Both the position numbers and the translations under genes were made by a program. Below, in pieces: positions 171 through 23,312 of a DNA stretch of 36,782 nucleotides (positions within the stretch are counted from its first letter, which is position 1; each line of letters opens with the position of its first letter). The notes under the pieces are model-generated. The model made no database searches, was not told the origin of the DNA, and saw only the letters and a list, made by a program, of their open reading frames with translations. This DNA is from Desulfobacterales bacterium (lineage in GTDB: Bacteria; Desulfobacterota; Desulfobacteria; Desulfobacterales; C00003060), in contig JAUWXF010000019.1 of assembly GCA_030616475.1 (NCBI GenBank), positions 1-36,782 on the forward strand. The letters run 5' to 3'.

Positions 171-179
171 GTGAAGGAT

Positions 180-2498
180 ATGATAAACTGGATGCATAAT
201 CTGCAAAAAAGGACCGGACTTCGCGTCAAGATCCTCGTGGCAACGATCCTGGTGGTCGCGGTATTTACCGGGGCGTTCCTCTATCAAACCGTGACTTTTC
301 ATACAGAGAGCGCCTTGAACCTGGTGACAGAATCGAGCCAAAGCCTGCTCGAAAACACATACAGTGCTATCAAATATCCGATGTCAATCGGAGACAGCAA
401 GACCGTTGAGCAGCAACTGAAGGACATCAAAGACCATATGGAAGACGTTGAGGTCTATATATCAGACTTCCGCAAGAAGCTAACCTATGCCTCAGAAGAG
501 GACCGAATTCATACTGACATTACGCACTATTTGTGGGGAAAAGAGACCCAACAGGGACTTGCCGATGCACTAGGCACAGGGCGGTCGCCTAAGAAATCCT
601 TTACGGAAACCAAAAACGAGGACGCTTTTTTGGTCACCATAAAGCCCCTTTTGAATGAAGACTCATGTCATCACTGCCACGGGGCGAGTCAGAAAGTCCT
701 GGGTGCCATGGTTGTCAAATACCCTGTACAAGAGGTCTATGCCTCTCTCTCTTCAGCCAGAAATCGCTTAATACTGTTTTCTGTCATCGAGATCATTGGG
801 ATCATACTTGTTATCAACTTTCTATTTAGTAGACTGGTAACCCGACGCATTAAAAACTTGGCGGAAAAGACGGGTGAGGTCTCGGCCGGAGATATCTCCG
901 TTGAAGTCCATGATGATTCTCGGGACTCCATTGGAAGGTTAACTCGGAATTTTGACCAGATGATCAAGAACATCCGTGATCGTATGGAATATGCCAATAG
1001 CCTCAAGCTGGGCATCTCAGACCCCTTTATCATGGTCGACCCTGATATGAACCTCACCTATATCAATGATGCCGCTGCCAAATTTGTGGGTGTTCGGCGT
1101 GAGGATGTCCAGGGTAAGAAAACCTGTGAACAGATATTTCAGAGCGATATATGCCACACAGGATGCCCCATAAAAAAGTCAATGGAAACCGGAGAGTCCA
1201 CCGTGGGTTGCAGGGTCACTGCAAAAAGCGCTGAGGGAAAAGAAATTCCCCTCATGGCCAGTGGTGCTGCCCTGAAGGACTCAGCAGGCAAGATCCTGGG
1301 CGGGTTTGAAATTATACGCGATATCTCCAAAGAAGTTGAAGCAGAATCTGTGCTCAGAGACTCTTACCTCAAGGAAGAAGAAGCAAAGAAGAGGTTGCAG
1401 GGCCGAGTCGAAAGCCTTTCAGATATCTTGAAGAACGTTGCAGAAGGTGACCTCACGGTGAGGGCTGAAATGAGCGGAGAAGATGATGCAATGGACCAAC
1501 TGGTCCGTAGAACCAACGAAACCCTTGATCATGTGAAGGAACTCATTAGCCAGACAAAAAAATCCGCCCTGACAGTGGTCATGGGAGTCCGGCACATCTC
1601 TGAAGGAAACATAGAACTGGCCCAGCGCACACAGCAACAGGCCGCCACCGTGGAACAGACGAGCGGAACCGTGCAACAACTGGTATCCAGTATTAACCAA
1701 AACACCGCCAACACCCAGCGGGCCGATACTCTTTCAAAGGAGGCGGTGGCTGTGGCCGTGGAGGGTGGAGAGACAGTTGAAAAGACAACCCAGGCCATGA
1801 ACGACATGTCGGAAGGTAGCCGCAAGATCGTTGAGATGATGGATTTGATCAACGACATAACCTTTCAGACCAACCTTCTTTCGATCAATGCTGCGGTGGA
1901 AGCAGCACGGGCCGGAGAACAGGGGCGGGGGTTTGCTGTTGTCGCCGACGAAGTGCGCAGTCTTGCAAAAAGAAGCTCAGAGGCGTCCAAGGATATTCAA
2001 GGCCTTGTCCGCAATATCATGGATCAGGTTAATACGGGCAAGGAGTGGGTTGGCCAGCTTGAGAACGGATTTAAGAAGATTGTCGAAACCAGTAAACAGG
2101 CTTCCAATGCTCTCAGCGAGGTCTCCTTAGCCACCCAGGAAAGTTCAAGAGGAGTTGAGCAGATTGGCCAGGGAATAAACGAGTTGAATGATGTGATTGC
2201 ACATAATGCATCATCGGTGGATGAATTGGCGAGTGCTACAGAACAGCTCAATCAAAAAGCCGGCTTGCTACAGGCTATGGCTGAGAAGTTCACGTTGGGC
2301 GATCAGGGCGATATCAAGGTTGAAGAGCTCAGTTTCGAGAAAAGGTTCCGAATTCCAAAGAAAAAGAAAGAGAGGCGAGGAACCAAACCGCCTGCTACAA
2401 AGCCCTTACATGAGGAGTTGGCTACTCAGGACCCCATTGAAGAAAAACCAGAAGAGATAATAGAAAAAGAGCTGGATGAGGGATTCGAGGAATTCTAA
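180..2498 (+). CDS. Methyl-accepting chemotaxis protein with c-type heme sensor domain
   Basis: Transmembrane chemoreceptor that passes a periplasmic signal to CheA/CheW. In order it shows TM1 (about residues 14-34), a periplasmic domain of about 160 residues with a CHHCH heme-attachment motif at residues 163-167, TM2 (about 195-218), HAMP, a PAS domain with clustered cysteines (C...DICHTGCP), a second HAMP-like segment and a full MCP signalling hairpin with tip NAAVEAARAGEQGRGFAVVA. The tail is a charged linker ending GFEEF, which fits the aromatic-x-x-aromatic pentapeptide that tethers CheR/CheB. A GTG at 171 is in frame, but GGAGGTG at 167-173 spaces better to the ATG at 180. The stop overlaps the cheW start (TAATG). 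Heme attachment suggests redox or gas sensing; the ligand is not known. Confidence 0.93.
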   Translation: MINWMHNLQKRTGLRVKILVATILVVAVFTGAFLYQTVTFHTESALNLVTESSQSLLENTYSAIKYPMSIGDSKTVEQQLKDIKDHMEDVEVYISDFRKKLTYASEEDRIHTDITHYLWGKETQQGLADALGTGRSPKKSFTETKNEDAFLVTIKPLLNEDSCHHCHGASQKVLGAMVVKYPVQEVYASLSSARNRLILFSVIEIIGIILVINFLFSRLVTRRIKNLAEKTGEVSAGDISVEVHDDSRDSIGRLTRNFDQMIKNIRDRMEYANSLKLGISDPFIMVDPDMNLTYINDAAAKFVGVRREDVQGKKTCEQIFQSDICHTGCPIKKSMETGESTVGCRVTAKSAEGKEIPLMASGAALKDSAGKILGGFEIIRDISKEVEAESVLRDSYLKEEEAKKRLQGRVESLSDILKNVAEGDLTVRAEMSGEDDAMDQLVRRTNETLDHVKELISQTKKSALTVVMGVRHISEGNIELAQRTQQQAATVEQTSGTVQQLVSSINQNTANTQRADTLSKEAVAVAVEGGETVEKTTQAMNDMSEGSRKIVEMMDLINDITFQTNLLSINAAVEAARAGEQGRGFAVVADEVRSLAKRSSEASKDIQGLVRNIMDQVNTGKEWVGQLENGFKKIVETSKQASNALSEVSLATQESSRGVEQIGQGINELNDVIAHNASSVDELASATEQLNQKAGLLQAMAEKFTLGDQGDIKVEELSFEKRFRIPKKKKERRGTKPPATKPLHEELATQDPIEEKPEEIIEKELDEGFEEF

Positions 2499-2950
2499 TG
2501 TCTGAGATTCAGCAACATGTGATCTTTTCAATACATGAACAAATATATGGTATTGAAATCCTTAAGATAAAAGAGGTCTTCAGTTATCGAAAGATCACGC
2601 CTCTTCCCAATATGAGAGGGATTATCAAGGGGATCATTAATCTGAGGGGGATTATTCTGCCGGTATTTGATTTGAGGGAGAAGTTTAATCTTCCGGAAAC
2701 CACATATACCCCTTTCCACATAATCATTGTGATGGAGATATCGGGAAGAGTTATGGGGGTTATCGTAGATGAGATTTCGGACGTGGTGGGGCTCGTGCCC
2801 GAGGAAGTTCAAGCCCCTTCCAATCTTCCTCCTGATGTACAAGCCGAATATATCAAAGGAATTGGGAAAAAAGAACATGAGCTTATCATCCTCTTGGATG
2901 TAGATCGGCTTTTGAGTCCTGATGAACTCGAAATCCTGGATGCCACCTGA
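2498..2950 (+). CDS. cheW: Chemotaxis coupling protein CheW
   Basis: A 150-residue single CheW domain, the usual family length, that couples receptors to the histidine kinase CheA in the cytoplasm. Family features are the N-terminal strand IFSIHEQIYGIEILKIKEV, the RKITPLPNMRGIIKGIINLRG stretch (conserved P and NLRG), FDLREKF, and VDEISDVV near the C-terminus. The start overlaps the stop of the receptor gene by one base, so the two are probably translationally coupled and work together. No CheA is encoded in this window. Confidence 0.95.
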   Translation: MSEIQQHVIFSIHEQIYGIEILKIKEVFSYRKITPLPNMRGIIKGIINLRGIILPVFDLREKFNLPETTYTPFHIIIVMEISGRVMGVIVDEISDVVGLVPEEVQAPSNLPPDVQAEYIKGIGKKEHELIILLDVDRLLSPDELEILDAT

Positions 2951-2964
2951 GATGGTGTGCTCTT

Positions 2965-3519
2965 ATGGTCCCCCTGTCGGAAGCGGAGTTTGAGCTATTC
3001 AGACATTTTATCAAAAAACATGCGGGCATTTCGTTTTCTCGCGTAAAGAGATTGGCTTTACAAAGAAAGCTGGCCTCCAGACTGAGTCACTTGGGGCTGG
3101 AATCATATGAGGCGTATTATCGCTACTTGCTCCACGACAAACAAGCCGGACGGGAACTACGGCAACTTATTAATGCGATTACGGTCGGCCAAACCGCATT
3201 TTTTTAGGCACGCCGAACAGTTTGAGTTTCTGACCAAGGTCGTATTACCTCAAATTGCAACACAGAAGAACACCACCAAGAAGCTGCGTATATGGTCCGC
3301 CGGATGCGCCACAGGCCAGGAAGCCTACAGTATGGACATTATCTTCTGTCGGAACGTGATGATATATTTCGATGCAGAGGGAAAAAAAAGCTCATCGATC
3401 ATTTTTTCCGCATCTTGGAACGAGACGGATTCCTGTGCCTGGGAGCTTCCGAAACTTTGATCGGTATTGACGAGCGTTTTGCCTCGGTGGGCCATTTCAC
3501 CTATCAAAAGAAAGGATAG
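2965..3519 (+). pseudogene. cheR: cheR pseudogene: two frameshifts plus internal deletion
   Basis: CheR methylates receptor glutamates with SAM. The N-terminal helical domain runs from the ATG at 2965 and stops at 3205-3207 after a T7 run, where one T fewer would continue FFRHAEQFEFL. The next frame carries LRIWSAGCATGQEAYS (SAM motif I) and then jumps directly to DIIFCRNVMIYFD. About 85 residues normally lie between these two motifs, including part of the SAM pocket. A second shift in an A8 run near 3382-3389 returns to the first frame (LIDHFFRILERDGFLCLGASETL). The joined length is about 184 residues against roughly 280 for the family. Sequencing error could explain the homopolymer shifts but not the deletion. 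The function is almost surely lost here. Confidence 0.88.
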
Positions 3520-3536
3520 GCGGAAAGGATAGACCC

Positions 3537-4121
3537 TTGTACCGATTTTACAGCCAGAAGTTCAAGAAAACAGTTATCATGCTCACGGCAGGTGAGTATT
3601 TTGCCACTCAAAATGGCGAGGTACTTTACACCGTTGTGGGCTCTTGTATCGCCACCTGCATGTATGACAAGGAAAGAGGAGTGGCCGGGATGAACCATTT
3701 TTTACTTCCGGGCATGGTGCATCCTGATGAAATGCTGTCTTGCGAAGTGGGCCGATACGGTATGTTCGCTATGGAGCTCTTGATCGGTGAACTTATTAAA
3801 TTGGGAGCACGGAGAGAAGGGCTTCAGGCCAAGTTATTTGGGGGAGGCGACATATTGACATTTAGAACGAGTGACGGCGATGTAACCGGATCCAATATTC
3901 GTTTTGCAAAGAAATTCCTGGAACTGGAAGGTATCCCCATAGTGAAGGAAAATGTGGGAGGGAACGGCGGCAGAAAGATCTTGTTTTTTAGTGATAGTGA
4001 TCGAGTCCTCTTGAAACGATTTGATGTCAAAAAAGAGCCACGGTTCGTTCAGGAGGAAGACGCTTACAAGAAAAGGGTTTTCCAAAAACGCGTGGAAAAG
4101 TCACGAGTGATACTCTTCTAG
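3537..4121 (+). CDS. cheD: Chemoreceptor glutamine deamidase CheD
   Basis: CheD deamidates glutamines in chemoreceptors and in some systems binds CheC. The catalytic cysteine is in VGSCIATCMYD and the catalytic histidine in GMNHFLLP; GGGDIL and GGNGGRKILF are further family blocks. At 194 residues it is slightly longer than typical (about 160-200) because of a basic C-terminal tail. The chosen start is a TTG preceded by GGAAAGGA. An internal ATG 39 bases downstream, just before LTAGEYF, matches where CheD homology begins and is an alternative start. It lies 17 bases after the cheR remnant, so the operon continues past the damage. Confidence 0.92.
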   Translation: MYRFYSQKFKKTVIMLTAGEYFATQNGEVLYTVVGSCIATCMYDKERGVAGMNHFLLPGMVHPDEMLSCEVGRYGMFAMELLIGELIKLGARREGLQAKLFGGGDILTFRTSDGDVTGSNIRFAKKFLELEGIPIVKENVGGNGGRKILFFSDSDRVLLKRFDVKKEPRFVQEEDAYKKRVFQKRVEKSRVILF

Positions 4122-4122
4122 T

Positions 4123-4248
4123 ATGTCGGAAATTCTACAACCGGTCGAAATCATAAGCCATTTAATGGCAATAGATTTATGCCGTCCAGATGGAGAGATG
4201 GAGTATGTAGAATCCGTTACGAGTTTCGGGTTACGAGTTCCGAGTTAA
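4123..4248 (+). CDS. Short ORF, possible gene remnant after cheD
   Basis: An open frame of 41 codons starts one base after the cheD stop (MSEILQPVEIISHLMAIDL...). The first codons resemble a second place in the window, 18835-18870, which reads SEILQPIEVIDVY and shares 17 identical bases, so this may be the head of a small conserved gene or a short dispersed word. The last 15 codons run into the inverted-repeat element at 4197, which suggests that the original 3' end is gone. No family is recognised. Confidence 0.25.
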   Translation: MSEILQPVEIISHLMAIDLCRPDGEMEYVESVTSFGLRVPS

Positions 4249-4328
4249 GATTCTTTCAACTATCGACGCGCAACACGTAACTCGTAACACGCAACCTGTA
4301 TTAAGCCCATCACTCCAGTACTCCATTG
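4197..4328. repeat. Nested inverted-repeat element between cheD and cheB
   Basis: Outer arms are GATGGAGTA (4197-4205) and TACTCCAT (4319-4326). Inner arms are two tandem GTTACGAGTT-like words (4216-4245) against GTAACTCGTAACACG (about 4276-4291). Further ACTCCAATACTCCAAT tandem words follow up to 4350. The element has no coding potential and could fold as a long hairpin in mRNA or act as a repeat target. Confidence 0.65.
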
Positions 4329-4376
4329 CTCCAATACTCCAATACTCCAATTGGGGTGAAGCCCCTGAGTTCGAAC

Positions 4377-5402
4377 ATGAAACCAATCCGCGTGCTCATT
4401 GTTGACGATTCGCCTACCGTGCAATCGGCTCTGACGAGTGTTCTCTCGGCAGAGTCTGATATTGAGGTAGTGGGAACTGCTTCGGATCCCTTTGAGGCAA
4501 AGGATTTGATCCTAAAAAAAAGGCCTGATGTAATCACCCTGGACATTGAGATGCCTCGAATGGATGGGATCACCTTTCTGAAACGCCTTATGAGCTTCCG
4601 TCCTCTCCCGGTGATCATGATCAGTTCCTATACCCGCGAAAATAGCATACGCACCCTGGAAGCTCTAAATGCCGGGGCTGTTGATTTTGTTGCCAAGGAT
4701 ATGAAGACCGGTTTCAAGAAATTAGAATATGAGATTATCACTAAGGTAAGAGCGGCAGCACAGGCCAGGATCAAACCCTTTGTCGTATTTGGCAAACCCG
4801 GAAAACCCGTACCGACAGCGAAAATTACGTCCTCGGACAAGATCATTGCCATCGGGGCCTCAACAGGGGGCCCTCTCGCCATACACAGAGTGCTGGGGTC
4901 GATACCTTCGAATGTGAATGGAATCGTCATGGTCCAGCACATGCCGGCTCGCTTTACAAAGGCATTTGCCCAGCAGTTGGACACATCGTTCCCAATGGAG
5001 GTCAAGGAGGCCGAGCACTGGGATCGCCTGGATAGAGGGAAGGTGCTGGTGGCACCCGGTGGATTGCACCTGGAGGTGGCCCGGGACCATAACGGATATT
5101 ATGTGCGGGTGCAAGACGGCCAACCGGTCAAACACCAGCGGCCTTCCGTAGATGTCTTGTTCCACTCGGTTGCAAAGACCGCAGCCAGTAGTGCCATAGG
5201 CATACTCCTCACAGGGATGGGAAATGATGGGGTTGATGGCTTGCTGGCTATGAAGCAGGCCGGGGCTTTTACCATTGCGCAGGATGAATCCACCTCCGTG
5301 GTGTTTGGCATGCCCGGGTCGGCCATCGAACGTGGTGCAGTTGAAGAAGTAGCTGCACTGGATGATATAGCACGTATTGTTCTTTCGAGACTCAAATCGT
5401 AG
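4377..5402 (+). CDS. cheB: Chemotaxis protein-glutamate methylesterase/deamidase CheB
   Basis: CheB removes methyl groups from receptors when phosphorylated by CheA. The receiver domain (residues 1-120) has VDDS and the phospho-acceptor in LDIEMPRMDG. The catalytic domain (about 155-340) has the active serine in IGASTGGP, the histidine in QHMP and the aspartate in LLTGMGNDG. The ATG at 4377 begins at MKPIRVLIVDDS and gives 341 residues, normal for the family. A TTG at 4326 in the same frame would only add residues encoded by the upstream tandem repeat. No strong ribosome binding site is visible, since the repeat element has replaced the sequence upstream. Confidence 0.95.
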   Translation: MKPIRVLIVDDSPTVQSALTSVLSAESDIEVVGTASDPFEAKDLILKKRPDVITLDIEMPRMDGITFLKRLMSFRPLPVIMISSYTRENSIRTLEALNAGAVDFVAKDMKTGFKKLEYEIITKVRAAAQARIKPFVVFGKPGKPVPTAKITSSDKIIAIGASTGGPLAIHRVLGSIPSNVNGIVMVQHMPARFTKAFAQQLDTSFPMEVKEAEHWDRLDRGKVLVAPGGLHLEVARDHNGYYVRVQDGQPVKHQRPSVDVLFHSVAKTAASSAIGILLTGMGNDGVDGLLAMKQAGAFTIAQDESTSVVFGMPGSAIERGAVEEVAALDDIARIVLSRLKS

Positions 5403-5409
5403 GGACTAA

Positions 5410-5493
5410 TGACGAAATCAAGAGAGTACGCCTCTTGTCATTTCGTGCTTTCCTCATTTCGTGTTTTGCGGCGTTCGCCTTGTGAAGAGGCGT
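5410..5493. repeat. Overlapping inverted repeats between cheB and the GGDEF gene
   Basis: ACGAAATCAAGAG (5412-5424) pairs with CTCTTG-tc-ATTTCGT (5432-5446). A second pair, ACGCCTCTT (5428-5436) and AAGAGGCGT (5485-5493), overlaps the first, so the two hairpins are mutually exclusive. The arrangement could be a terminator or attenuator for cheB or another member of the nested repeat family; no clear T-run supports a classical terminator. Confidence 0.55.
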
Positions 5494-5534
5494 GATTATC
5501 TTTTGTTTGTATTGTTTCATATAAGGACTTATCC

Positions 5535-6446
5535 ATGGCCAAAATACTTCTTATAGACGATAGTCGACTGATTGCCCATGTGGCCAAGACGATTTTAACC
5601 AAGCGGGGACATAAGGTCATTTTGGCTCAGGATGGCCTGGCCGGCATGGAGGCAGCCAAATCTGAACAGCCTGACTTGATCCTGTTGGATTTGATCATGC
5701 CGGTCATGGATGGCTACCAGGTGTGTCAAGAGTTAAAAGAGGAGGAGAGCACCAAGGAGATACCCGTCATTATGCTTACGTCAAAGGCCGAGCCCGCCGA
5801 CAAGGTGAAGGGCCTGGAGATAGGGGCTCTGGATTATGTGACTAAACCATTTGACGAAGGCGAGTTGGTAGCGCGTGTGAATGTACAATTACAACTAAGA
5901 CAGCTCCATGAAACCCTTCAGGAGAAAAATCGGCAGCTCCAAGAGCTGGCCAACAAAGACGGACTGACGGGCCTGTACAACCACCGATATTTCCAGGAGC
6001 AGTTGTCAAAGGACTTTTTGCGCGCAAAACGGTATCATGAGAATTTATCGTGCGTTTTGTTAGACATAGACCACTTTAAGGAATTCAACGATACTCACGG
6101 CCATCAGACGGGTGACGTCATATTGAGTACCCTGGGACGTGTAATCGAAGACTCGATCAGGGACAGCGATTTAGTGGCCAGATACGGGGGTGAAGAGTTG
6201 GCGCTCATTTTGTATCACACTGATGGGCCGGCAGCGTTTCATTTGGCTGAACGCCTCCGGCAGACGGTGGAAAGTCATGAGGTCCATGATAAGGGCAACG
6301 TGCTGCATATCACCATCAGCTTAGGGATTGCCACATTTCCGAGCGAGCAAATCAGCGATTCCAAGGAGCTAATTGAATGTGCTGATAAGGCGCTGTATCA
6401 GGCCAAGGAAAATGGCCGAAACCGAGTGGAGGTCTATGGAGACTGA
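5535..6446 (+). CDS. Response regulator with GGDEF output (diguanylate cyclase, PleD-like)
   Basis: Predicted cytoplasmic enzyme making c-di-GMP from two GTP when its receiver is phosphorylated. The receiver covers residues 1-120, with IDDS, the phospho-acceptor in LILLDLIMPVMDG and the lysine in VTKPFD. A short coiled linker follows (about 120-140). The GGDEF domain shows DGLTGLYNHR, DIDHFKEFNDTHGHQTGD and the active-site signature YGGEEL. RDSD five residues before GGEE is the RxxD inhibitory site, so product feedback is expected. The 303-residue length fits REC-GGDEF proteins. Its product is the ligand of the riboswitch near 12.05 kb, and its position after cheB links chemotaxis to surface behaviour. 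Confidence 0.95.
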   Translation: MAKILLIDDSRLIAHVAKTILTKRGHKVILAQDGLAGMEAAKSEQPDLILLDLIMPVMDGYQVCQELKEEESTKEIPVIMLTSKAEPADKVKGLEIGALDYVTKPFDEGELVARVNVQLQLRQLHETLQEKNRQLQELANKDGLTGLYNHRYFQEQLSKDFLRAKRYHENLSCVLLDIDHFKEFNDTHGHQTGDVILSTLGRVIEDSIRDSDLVARYGGEELALILYHTDGPAAFHLAERLRQTVESHEVHDKGNVLHITISLGIATFPSEQISDSKELIECADKALYQAKENGRNRVEVYGD

Positions 6447-10037: not shown

Positions 10038-11945
10038 CTACGCTTGCTCACCACCCGTCACCGGCCTGCCAGGCATCCGTAAGAACCAACCCAGCGCGAA
10101 TAGCGCCAGCATGAGTCCGGCCAGAATCCTTGTTGCCACAGACGCCTTGATGAGGACATAGCTAATGCCTACCAGGGGCATAAGTGCCAGACGCACAATG
10201 GGCTTGGACCAGGCGTGAGTGTTGATGAGATCTGCCCAGAATGGACCGTACCGGTAATACATCCTGACAAACCATGTGCCGGACATGTTTGTGAGCAGGC
10301 ATTGATCTCTGAAATCTCTCAACAGTCTTACGTGGGGTTCTGCATATGAGCCGAAGGCTGCGGTTGCAATAAAACATCCACCGTCATGGCTTCCCACGTC
10401 ACCACCTGAAGTAGAGCTCGTCTCAACATCAGTACTGCCTGCCTCGGCAAGGCCGCCCGGGTCCACGATGAAGCCATTGGCTACTCCGTCGCTGTCGCCA
10501 TAGCCGCCGTCCTTCAACTCAACGGTGACAGATCGGCCATCGGTATTGATGGTGGCATGCTCCGAGTAGTTCTGCCAGCCGTTGATCGTGTCATATTTGT
10601 AGAAAGTCCCGGCCTTTGAAATATCTTTTGAGAAATAGATTCTTACCGTGGCCGTGGCTCCAGGCTCATTTACACTTAGGCGATAAGAGAAAAGTCCAAA
10701 GGAAAGATTGCTGGGCCTGTTGGTATTGTCGGAAATGGTTGCCGGATCAATCGTCTCCAGGGCTTCGATGGCCGTAATGGAATCCGAGGCCTTGCAAACA
10801 CCAATGGTGGCATTATAAACCACGGATTGTATGCATTTAATGAGCTCAGGTTGGTTGTTATCAGGAATTTCGTCTCCATTGAGGTCCACGGAATTATCAA
10901 CTTCTTGATCGTCTGGAACGCCGGGAACGCCATGGGGGTCAACATCGTTGTTGTACGAGGCGGTGGTGAACTTAATAGCATCAGAAATAACATCAGACCA
11001 GTCTGAGGGTTCCAGATAGACATCATAGAATCGAACGCGGACATAGTACGTGGTGTCTGGCTTCAGCAGTGTGTGCGGAACGGGCAGTTCTGTGAGGTGC
11101 TCGGTGCCGGTCACATCAAGAATCGGGGCGTCCTTGAAGTCCTCTTGCTTGCTGATCTGCCATTGGCTTTGGCTGTGGTGGTCGCCGTCCGGGTCCGAGA
11201 AAGGTTCGGTGGTGATAAGTAACAGCAGGTCACACTCTATCTCGCCATAATATGGTGATGTGATAACCGGGTCAGGAGGGGCAAGATTCGAGTCTGGGAC
11301 AACTGTGATGGTGACAGTCTCAGAATCGCTTAGCGGTGGTGTACCATCGTCAGTTATTGCGAACAGTACGTCATGGTTGCCAGTATCACCATAGCCAGGC
11401 GTCCAGCTAAAGGTCTGTGTGGCAGGATCAAAGCCGGCATCAGTGGGAAGATTGCTGGCAGAATATGTGAGGGCATCACCATCCGGATCGCTTGCTGTGA
11501 TAGTGAACTCAAGCAATGAGTCCTCATCTACGCTCTTTGCACCAATGGGATTAAGCACCGGCGGAACGTTCGGTTGATAACACACTTCATTGGAATCGCC
11601 ACTCTCGTTGCCAGAAGTATCAAAGGCCCTTACCACGAAATAATAAGTGATACTGTCATCCAACTCATAGATGGTTTCATCAATGGTGCAGCTCGTGTCA
11701 GTCCCTTCCCAGTCCGGATCGTTGTAATTGTAACTCTGGCCATCCTCGCGGCAAAAAACTCTATACCCGGCAAGATCTTCTTCGCTATTAGCATCCCAGG
11801 CCAATGTTACGTCAACTGCATAGACATTTTGGGGGAACAGAAAAAGAATTGGGGCCAAAGCGACAAAGAAGAGAAGACTAAGAAGGAAAAAACCGGAAGA
11901 TCGGGGACGTAAAAATTTTGCTGATAATATATTAAATGATGACAT
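10038..11945 (-). CDS. Secreted multidomain protein with choice-of-anchor U and CFI-box C-terminal domains
   Basis: Predicted cell-surface protein of 635 residues. It has a signal peptide with a long hydrophobic core ending near VYA (about residue 43), a fibronectin III-like domain (about 45-128) and a cadherin/Ig-like domain (about 130-215, IGAKSVDEDSLLEFTITASD). A second Fn3-like domain follows (about 218-330), then a choice-of-anchor U type domain (about 375-505, AGTFYKYDTINGWQNYSEHA). The C-terminus has CFIATAAFGS at residue 524 and hydrophobic segments, the CFI-box sorting-type domain. A role in adhesion or surface display is inferred. Translation starts at GGAGGTGCTGTC-ATG, and this site lies inside a hairpin downstream of a c-di-GMP riboswitch and a sigma-54 promoter. 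Confidence 0.85.
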   Translation of the reverse strand: MSSFNILSAKFLRPRSSGFFLLSLLFFVALAPILFLFPQNVYAVDVTLAWDANSEEDLAGYRVFCREDGQSYNYNDPDWEGTDTSCTIDETIYELDDSITYYFVVRAFDTSGNESGDSNEVCYQPNVPPVLNPIGAKSVDEDSLLEFTITASDPDGDALTYSASNLPTDAGFDPATQTFSWTPGYGDTGNHDVLFAITDDGTPPLSDSETVTITVVPDSNLAPPDPVITSPYYGEIECDLLLLITTEPFSDPDGDHHSQSQWQISKQEDFKDAPILDVTGTEHLTELPVPHTLLKPDTTYYVRVRFYDVYLEPSDWSDVISDAIKFTTASYNNDVDPHGVPGVPDDQEVDNSVDLNGDEIPDNNQPELIKCIQSVVYNATIGVCKASDSITAIEALETIDPATISDNTNRPSNLSFGLFSYRLSVNEPGATATVRIYFSKDISKAGTFYKYDTINGWQNYSEHATINTDGRSVTVELKDGGYGDSDGVANGFIVDPGGLAEAGSTDVETSSTSGGDVGSHDGGCFIATAAFGSYAEPHVRLLRDFRDQCLLTNMSGTWFVRMYYRYGPFWADLINTHAWSKPIVRLALMPLVGISYVLIKASVATRILAGLMLALFALGWFLRMPGRPVTGGEQA

Positions 11946-11947
11946 GA

Positions 11948-12001
11948 CAGCACCTCCAGAATGTGTTTAGCCGTGCTCAACACAGCTTCCAGGAGGTGCT
12001 G
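11948..12001 (-). promoter_or_regulatory. Shine-Dalgarno-masking hairpin (riboswitch expression platform)
   Basis: In the minus-strand RNA, CAGCACCTCC (12001-11992) is perfectly complementary to GGAGGTGCTG (11957-11948), which contains the ribosome binding site of the CFI-box gene. The loop has a further TGTGTT/AACACA pair. The anti-SD arm begins immediately after the riboswitch aptamer, so ligand binding could plausibly open or close this hairpin; the direction cannot be deduced. Confidence 0.75.
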
Positions 12002-12004
12002 CGT

Positions 12005-12100
12005 ATGCCCGGTAGCCCTGCTACCTTATCTTTGCAACCTCAGACTTAGGCCAGCAGCTTTGCGTCCCACCCTTTCGAGTGGTTTGCCTTTTTCGAACAT
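12005..12100 (-). ncRNA. Cyclic di-GMP-I riboswitch (GEMM-I)
   Basis: The minus-strand RNA contains the GEMM-I signature in order: GGCAAACC, a stem capped by the CGAAAG tetraloop, GGGTGGGACGCAAAGC, GGCCTAA, and a closing arm GGTAGC-AGG-GCTACCG. This matches the Vibrio Vc2 aptamer nearly position by position, including the GAAA tetraloop and its receptor. A P1 helix can form between ATGTTC (12100-12095) and GGGCAT (12010-12005). It lies in the 5' leader of the CFI-box surface protein, a typical GEMM target class. Confidence 0.93.
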
Positions 12101-12141
12101 TCTTTTATGCTTTGTAATTCAAAGAAGCTGTCCACTGAAAT

Positions 12142-12157
12142 AGCAACATGCGTGCCA
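12142..12157 (-). promoter_or_regulatory. Sigma-54 (RpoN) promoter
   Basis: Minus strand reads TGGCACG-CATG-TTGCT, a perfect fit to the -24/-12 consensus TGGCACG N4 TTGCW. The predicted start of transcription is near 12131, about 30 bases before the GEMM-I aptamer, so the riboswitch and CFI-box gene form one sigma-54 transcript. Confidence 0.88.
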
Positions 12158-12302: not shown

Positions 12303-12320
12303 TATTACAAAAGTGTAATA
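12303..12320. terminator. Small hairpin after the EBP gene
   Basis: TATTACA (12303-12309) pairs with TGTAATA (12314-12320) across a 4-base loop, 14 bases beyond the stop of the sigma-54 activator gene. The stem is weak and AT-only apart from one C-G pair, so it may be a weak terminator or a protein-binding dyad. Confidence 0.35.
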
Positions 12321-22227: not shown

Positions 22228-23312
22228 AAATAAATAAGTAGCTCAGCCAAGCAGTTGATATTTATTGTGTTTAGCTATCCGTTCTCCCCGACTTACCGCA
22301 TACCCAACACCAGGCTGGCTCATACTAAGCCGTCTGCCCAGTTCCGACAACCCATATCCTAACTCTCTGACAGCCCAGTAGCAAAATAAACTCCTGGCTT
22401 CAACTCGAATCTTTTCCCGACTCTTTAAATAGATATCTTCCGGCTCTATATCGTATATCTCACAGACTTTTTGTTCAGCCCTTTTGAGATCGTACCCCAA
22501 ACTCTTCAGCTCATAATACCGATCCAACTTTTCATCAGCCTCCGCAAGTATCTCCAAAACAAAATCACTATCACCCAGTATACGCTCGTCTCCTCTGACT
22601 CTATCCTTACCTTTCAACCGCTGCTTCTTTGCCTCTAACCAACCCCCAACACTCCTGATCAACCCACCGCCAACAAGCTCCGGACGACGACCTTCATCAA
22701 TACCAGCCCTCACATATGAAAGGTAACGCCTCCTGGCGTCACCGATTCTTTTGCCAAAATACGACAGCACATAGTCTGTGTCCTGCCACTCACATTTCCT
22801 CTTGCTCATCAATACACTATGACCAGAGTATTTGTATCGGTTGAGCTGGCCAATTCCAGAAACCAACTTCGCTCTTACAGGGTTCAGGTGAATATAACGA
22901 ACCAGTTCCTTCAAATAAACGTCTTCCTGGCAGATAATCGACTTGTATCGGTTCTGGAAAAGATGACCGTAACGCTTGTGCCTACGGTTAAAACTCACTG
23001 CATAGCCGGTCAGCAAACGCCTCATTACCGTCGATAGCCCTACGGCTCCTGTCCTAAACAAAAAATGGGCATGATTTGACATCAATGCCCATGCATAACA
23101 AGCCGTCTTGGCTTCAGGCAAAATACTGTTCAAGCGGTCAACAAAATCCTCAAGGTCCGCTTTGTTCAAAAATATCTTGCGACGCCCTATCCCGCGGATA
23201 ATAACGTGATGTAATACCCCAGGTGCATCCAGTCGCGCTAGTCTTGGCATGAACTGGCATATACCACCAAGCCTCCACTATGTCAAGTTACTTATTTAGT
23301 TATGAACGTCCC
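22216..23312 (-). mobile_element. RAYT transposase gene framed by inverted REP-like repeats
   Basis: The left end, GGGGACGTTCATAAATAAAT continuing AAGTAGCT (22216-22243), is the inverted copy of the right end (23286-23312, whose complement reads GGGACGTTCATAACTAAATA then AGTAACT). About 24 of 27 positions match. The transposase gene fills the space between. This looks like a REP-flanked RAYT unit moved as a block between an AI-2E gene and an AGCS gene; single-strand HUH elements make no target duplication and none is visible. Confidence 0.75.
22243..23250 (-). CDS. REP-associated tyrosine transposase (RAYT, Y1/HUH family)
   Basis: Single-strand DNA nickase of the IS200/Y1 superfamily, 335 residues. 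The N-terminus is PRLARLDAPGVLHHVIIRGI, the metal-binding HUH motif is in ALMSNHAHFLFR, and the helix bearing the catalytic-region tyrosines reads LFQNRYKSIICQEDVYLKELVRYIHLNPVRA. The C-terminal 80 residues contain a DnaA-C-like helix-turn-helix (LFCYWAVRELGYGLSELGRRL, then SQPGVGYAVSRGE), known in one RAYT group. RAYTs act on REP repeats in trans, and short G-headed repeats are abundant to the right of this gene. Confidence 0.93.
   Translation of the reverse strand: MPRLARLDAPGVLHHVIIRGIGRRKIFLNKADLEDFVDRLNSILPEAKTACYAWALMSNHAHFLFRTGAVGLSTVMRRLLTGYAVSFNRRHKRYGHLFQNRYKSIICQEDVYLKELVRYIHLNPVRAKLVSGIGQLNRYKYSGHSVLMSKRKCEWQDTDYVLSYFGKRIGDARRRYLSYVRAGIDEGRRPELVGGGLIRSVGGWLEAKKQRLKGKDRVRGDERILGDSDFVLEILAEADEKLDRYYELKSLGYDLKRAEQKVCEIYDIEPEDIYLKSREKIRVEARSLFCYWAVRELGYGLSELGRRLSMSQPGVGYAVSRGERIAKHNKYQLLG

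Follow-up and report, generated by a model that had tools for sequence, protein, structure and literature searches.

The stretch of DNA analysed here, referred to as the window, is 36,782 nt long and comes from a Desulfobacterales bacterium. On its minus strand, a gene for an Fn3/CFI-box protein is preceded by a hairpin over its SD, a c-di-GMP-I (GEMM-I) aptamer and a sigma-54 promoter, and upstream of these is a gene for a sigma-54-dependent response regulator. The features of the locus are listed in Table 1. Elsewhere in the window, the plus strand carries a chemosensory cluster at positions 171-6446 (MCP, CheW, a short CheR ORF, CheD, CheB and REC-GGDEF), the output of which may be c-di-GMP. 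A REP-associated tyrosine (Y1) transposase-like gene (22243-23250, minus strand), which scores above the Pfam but below the NCBIfam cut-off, adjoins a gene for an AI-2E family transporter.

Table 1. Features of the locus, with the basis on which each was assigned
Feature	Position	Strand	Basis
Fn3/Ig-like/choice-of-anchor U/CFI-box-CTERM protein, 635 aa, putatively exported	10038..11945	-	Pfam, NCBIfam
SD arm GGAGGTGCTG, RBS of ATG 11945	11948..11957	-	10/10 pairing, covariation, RNAalifold
Middle strands GCTGTGT (11986-11980) and GCACGGC (11976-11970)	11970..11986	-	Alternative pairings
Anti-SD arm CAGCACCTCC	11992..12001	-	10/10 pairs with SD arm; compensatory changes
c-di-GMP-I (GEMM-I) aptamer	12005..12100	-	RF01051, 79.3 bits; RF03167, 68.9 bits
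Sigma-54 (-24/-12) promoter TGGCACGCATGTTGC	12143..12157	-	0 mismatches to consensus
Palindrome TTACACTTTTGTAA (TTACA-N4-TGTAA), candidate activator binding site	12305..12318	.	Upstream alignment conservation
Sigma-54-dependent response regulator (REC, AAA+ with GAFTGA, Fis HTH), 453 aa	12335..13696	-	PF00072/PF00158/PF02954

The protein contains fn3 and He_PIG (Ig-like) domains as defined by Pfam and matches NCBIfam NF041770 (92.4 bits, cut-off 40) and NF041766 (91.2 bits, cut-off 32), which are the CFI-box-CTERM/choice-of-anchor U models. Its N-terminus is a hydrophobic signal-like segment, and it is probably exported. The preliminary description of this locus, made without database searches, had called it a secreted Fn3/choice-of-anchor U/CFI-box protein, and the domains were all recovered, with export as a prediction. 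The minus-strand letters of the locus agree in full with that description. We know of no function for either the CFI-box or the choice-of-anchor U domain. No relative with a solved structure was found, and no paper was found under either domain name in the literature searched, the coverage of which was incomplete.

The promoter matches the consensus TGGCACGN4TTGC exactly, with GG at -24, GC at -12, the 10-nt spacing and the consensus flanks all present, and is the only exact match within the window. A sigma-54 site had previously been placed here at 12157-12142, and was located at 12157-12143. Counting from the GC at -12, transcription is predicted to start near 12131, approximately 34 nt ahead of the aptamer. 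The genome to which the window belongs encodes sigma-54 (PF04552), and also an activator with the GAFTGA motif, namely the response regulator in Table 1, for which ATG 13696 is the likely start. In homologous copies, the sigma-54 site is kept 44-78 nt upstream of the aptamer.

Clear orthologues of the response regulator were found in 10 genomes, all scoring at least 550 bits (the best match below them reached 375 bits), and in seven of these the gene is near a sigma-54-GEMM/Fn3 locus. In the window genome, G018, G006 and G012, it is immediately upstream in the same orientation; in G002, G051 and G049 it shares a contig with the aptamer and lies within a few kb of it. G005 has retained the response regulator, with neither an aptamer nor an Fn3 gene seen adjoining it. 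This response regulator is the probable activator of the promoter. The palindrome TTACA-N4-TGTAA, some 150 bp ahead of the -24 element, is its putative binding site. Alignment of the upstream regions shows it conserved in six copies (L001, L062, L002, L060, L066 and L067), including some whose examined flank shows no response regulator. The genome contains six such sites, compared with one for a control pattern, and each of the two paralogous sigma-54-GEMM promoters has one of the six. Two tandem copies of the palindrome (G000:C151:12384-12413; L282 and L283) were also seen about 285 bp from a 10/11 sigma-54 site that precedes a CxxCH cytochrome-like ORF, and possibly mark a second target of the same activator.

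The aptamer had been described as near-perfect GEMM-I, and the Rfam scan bears this out. The match to RF01051 spans 12008-12098 (gathering score 35, E value 8e-16) and is the top of the eight c-di-GMP-I matches in the genome. P1 consists of 7 bp (12100-12094 with 12011-12005), and P2 carries a GAAA tetraloop. Using numbering carried over from the paper on the cGAMP riboswitch structure (PMC6274999), alignment places the ligand contacts G20, A47 and C92 at 12088, 12061 and 12012, respectively. As an A-to-G change at base 20 converts a cGAMP aptamer to c-di-GMP selectivity (PMC6456294) and base 20 is G here, c-di-GMP is the ligand expected from the sequence.

That the ligand is instead 3′,3′-cGAMP or some other dinucleotide appears very improbable. 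cGAMP-sensing GEMM-I relatives are numerous in Geobacter (PMC8835794), and Rfam clan competition run without guidance picks the sister model RF03167, c-di-GMP-I-GGC. However, although the window scores above the RF03167 gathering score of 59, it has A at the A47 equivalent where the RF03167 consensus has G (ACGC-A-AAG vs ACGC-G-AAg), and membership of that family was dropped because of this signature base. The GGC in the family name we take to be the three ligand-contact bases. The G at the base-20 equivalent is likewise of the c-di-GMP type, and cGAMP or a variant ligand was dismissed on bases 20 and 47. The window's own REC-GGDEF protein (5535-6446) has GGEEL and an RxxD I-site, and its selectivity position is occupied by the c-di-GMP-type Asp rather than by Ser. 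In the leader (12130-12105), a TCTTTGA-like box was noted approximately 10-20 nt before the aptamer here and in L002, L055, L060, L065, L066 and L067. It is conserved in same-genus copies and, because its distance from the promoter varies, looks like an RNA element.

Between the aptamer and the start codon, the two arms CAGCACCTCC and GGAGGTGCTG form a hairpin in which all 10 positions pair and which covers the SD of ATG 11945. The minimum free energy is -32.5 kcal/mol (z -5.84), and none of 200 shuffled sequences was as stable. Among 12 homologues, 94 % of the cells in the SD hairpin are paired and compensatory double changes were found in 6 of the 10 pairs, which none of 500 shuffles matched, though this count used hand-picked arms and hence leans toward structure. 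RNAalifold, applied unguided to a sequence-only alignment of ten copies, returned the same SD hairpin together with the inner hairpin. The perfect 10-bp hairpin burying the RBS that was originally reported is thus confirmed, and its stability and covariation are as expected of an SD-sequestering platform. An intrinsic terminator was ruled out, as the hairpin is not followed by a U-run.

The stack is not confined to the window. A paralogue in the same genome (contig C180) combines an exact promoter, an aptamer and, with GGGGGTGCTG, an SD hairpin, and likewise encodes an Fn3 protein; in relatives from several families, too, this stack precedes an Fn3 protein of this kind. In a comparison set of 127 c-di-GMP-I sites from 96 relatives in the order, a sigma-54 site matching at least 9 of 11 positions was found within 110 nt upstream of 14 aptamers (approximately 0.4 expected), though these 14 include homologues and are not all independent. 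The controls yielded 0/123 and 1/127. Sixteen aptamers have a homologue of the window protein downstream, leaving out the weaker matches L108 and L146, whereas many other aptamers precede flagellar-type genes and have terminators instead. A genome-wide pattern scan that proved too loose returned 117 stretches, of which only about 9 passed filtering as real aptamers and most were chance matches; among named genomes, it added real cases from Deltaproteobacteria MAGs, from a Desulfobulbaceae MAG and from Bacterium HR37. Because it was found again in many related genomes, the stack of sigma-54 promoter, aptamer and masking hairpin looks like a genuine conserved control module, and at the level of sequence its association with the activator and the Fn3 gene is established. 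We have high confidence in the architecture of the locus (promoter, aptamer and SD-masking platform). Each component is of an already known kind and it is the combination that is conserved; no description of a c-di-GMP riboswitch behind a sigma-54 promoter was found in the literature searched, which was incompletely covered.

Some aptamers are found in other settings. L059, L084, L087 (G001), L064 (G021) and L075 (G003) have the aptamer and the same downstream hairpin but have lost the start codon, with ATC, AGT, AAC, GGC and ATC, respectively, following the hairpin. No sigma-54 site was seen at any of them, and in three the next gene, 150-230 nt away, encodes a small MERR..DRR membrane protein. 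These are possibly re-used leaders. In G060 (C102:7438-7794), four tandem c-di-GMP-I aptamers are ahead of one apparently exported protein.

The middle strands have more than one potential partner. Paired with each other, they form the inner hairpin within the masking hairpin (84 % kept). Alternatively, GCTGTGT can pair with ACGCAGC (12004-11998), which overlaps the anti-SD arm (90 % kept, no double changes), and GCACGGC can pair with the P1 3′ strand CCGGGC (12012-12007), in which case the SD is free. Most relatives, from several lineages, have a masking-hairpin loop that could pair with the P1 3′ strand, and the pairing is retained with altered sequences in, among others, L030 and L167 (CCGGGCGAGA/UCUCGGUCGG), L180 (CCGAGCAAA/UUUUGCGCGG) and L275 (CCGGGCAAG/CUUGCGCGG). 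Across homologues, the duplex gave a Fisher p of 7e-4, a value that is indicative only as the sequences are related; for the window copy alone, p was 0.44. A linker-shuffle test of this pairing gave mixed results (window, 0.79).

In nascent transcripts lacking the SD arm, 8 of 10 copies favour pairing of the P1 3′ strand with the mid-loop, the exceptions being the window (0.02) and L065. When the bound aptamer was forced, SD accessibility fell or was unchanged in 9 of 10 homologues; the sole clear drop was in L060 (0.40 to 0.08), and L065 showed a negligible rise (0.003 to 0.004). In the energy model, SD accessibility in the window copy is 0.041 both free and bound, i.e. the SD is masked either way. 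Since the SD hairpin dominates, whole-transcript equilibrium folding says nothing about polarity in most copies. Given the ligand-independent masking of its SD and its weak anti-P1 pairing, the window copy would have to switch kinetically.

The mechanism we propose is as follows. The adjacent response regulator, acting via TTACA-N4-TGTAA, would activate the sigma-54 promoter and give rise to an mRNA starting with the c-di-GMP-I aptamer, which would act on translation initiation. Without ligand, the P1 3′ strand and the anti-SD strand would pair with the middle strands, leaving the SD free. With c-di-GMP bound, P1 would be locked and its 3′ strand could not hold the middle strands; these would then fold on each other, the anti-SD arm would take the SD, and translation would be off. 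We infer that c-di-GMP binding and hairpin switching of this kind occur here. That c-di-GMP turns translation off is quite likely, though the signal for this sign is weak in the window copy. The full reading, in which sigma-54 and the activator permit transcription and c-di-GMP represses translation, is favoured by a modest degree.

If the same parts worked with the opposite sign, c-di-GMP would free the SD and the protein would be made at high c-di-GMP, as an adhesin might be. We consider this unlikely, though it deserves to be taken seriously. In Vibrio cholerae, the Vc1 element upstream of the attachment-protein gene gbpA acts in the ON direction (PMC4744006), and in Geobacter sulfurreducens KN400 a GEMM riboswitch precedes an FNIII gene that the authors link to attachment and biofilm (PMC13194489). 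In addition, the ACGCAGC/GCUGUGU pairing begins right after P1 and could stack on it. Against this, the SD-freeing fold uses the P1 3′ strand in most homologues, so that locking P1 costs pairs, and forcing the bound aptamer gave no meaningful gain in SD accessibility in any homologue.

It is less likely again that SD masking by the hairpin is constitutive, or is relieved by an sRNA, a ribosome from an upstream start or a helicase, with the aptamer uncoupled or acting in some other way. The identical accessibility of the window SD in the free and bound models would suit this explanation, as would an upstream frame (ATG-CAG-CAC) that overlaps the hairpin and the start codon in several relatives, e.g. 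L180. However, aptamer and hairpin are kept together at near-constant spacing at many loci, the P1 3′ strand complements the hairpin loop in several lineages, and the window has ACG in place of the upstream ATG, which several relatives lack. The frame itself, MQHLL(E/K)AV.., runs through the hairpin in L002, L055, L066, L067, L059, L084 and L180, ending in L180 in ATGA at the main start, and may allow translational coupling where it overlaps that start. Upstream-ORF coupling was rejected as a conserved requirement, as the ATG, present in L002, L055, L066, L067 and L180, reads ACG in the window and in L062 and is absent elsewhere.

Several known systems resemble the locus. For Vc2 of V. cholerae, translational repression through RBS masking is reported (Inuzuka 2018, cited in PMC9262584). 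The window shares with Vc2 (RF01051) the aptamer fold (P1/P2/P3, tetraloop and contacts G20/A47/C92) and, going by that citation, control at the RBS, but differs in the sequence of the expression platform, the sigma-54 promoter and the Fn3/CFI-box target gene. In Cd1 of Clostridioides difficile, a c-di-GMP OFF switch, aptamer and terminator coexist, as opposed to an antiterminator (PMC9262584). The logic proposed here is the same, in that the OFF hairpin would form alongside the bound aptamer and the P1 3′ strand would be drawn into the ON fold; however, Cd1 acts on transcription termination, whereas the target in the window would be the SD, with no U-run after the hairpin. The Geobacter case (KN400_1971) also has a GEMM-class aptamer before a fibronectin III protein, a likeness drawn on aptamer class and gene only. 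No sigma-54 promoter is mentioned for it in the available part of PMC13194489, and many Geobacter GEMM-I RNAs sense cGAMP.

The dual control by a sigma-54 activator and c-di-GMP proposed in the preliminary description is strongly supported, as the stack recurs and the activator gene adjoins it. The same account had the protein made only at the right level of c-di-GMP; control by c-di-GMP stands, but no direction had been given and the anatomy favours OFF. Its suggestion that such tight control points to a surface-attachment role was not borne out: the protein is probably exported and is Fn3/Ig-like, but we know of no function for its CFI-box and choice-of-anchor U domains and no relative with a solved structure was found. 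An OFF sign is a poor fit to a plain c-di-GMP-induced adhesin.

More broadly, one sigma-54 activator, via TTACA-N4-TGTAA, together with low c-di-GMP might control several Fn3/CFI-box proteins through a bistable four-strand SD switch in this deltaproteobacterial order, and these proteins might serve a low-c-di-GMP motile or dispersing state and not attachment; this we put forward tentatively. Together the loci make up a collection of natural c-di-GMP-I RNAs whose translational platform covaries, a type of which few examples have been characterized. The conserved link to a sigma-54 activator and c-di-GMP offers a handle on when CFI-box/choice-of-anchor U proteins are made, and the predicted OFF state at high c-di-GMP would separate a role as an adhesin from one in motility or dispersal.
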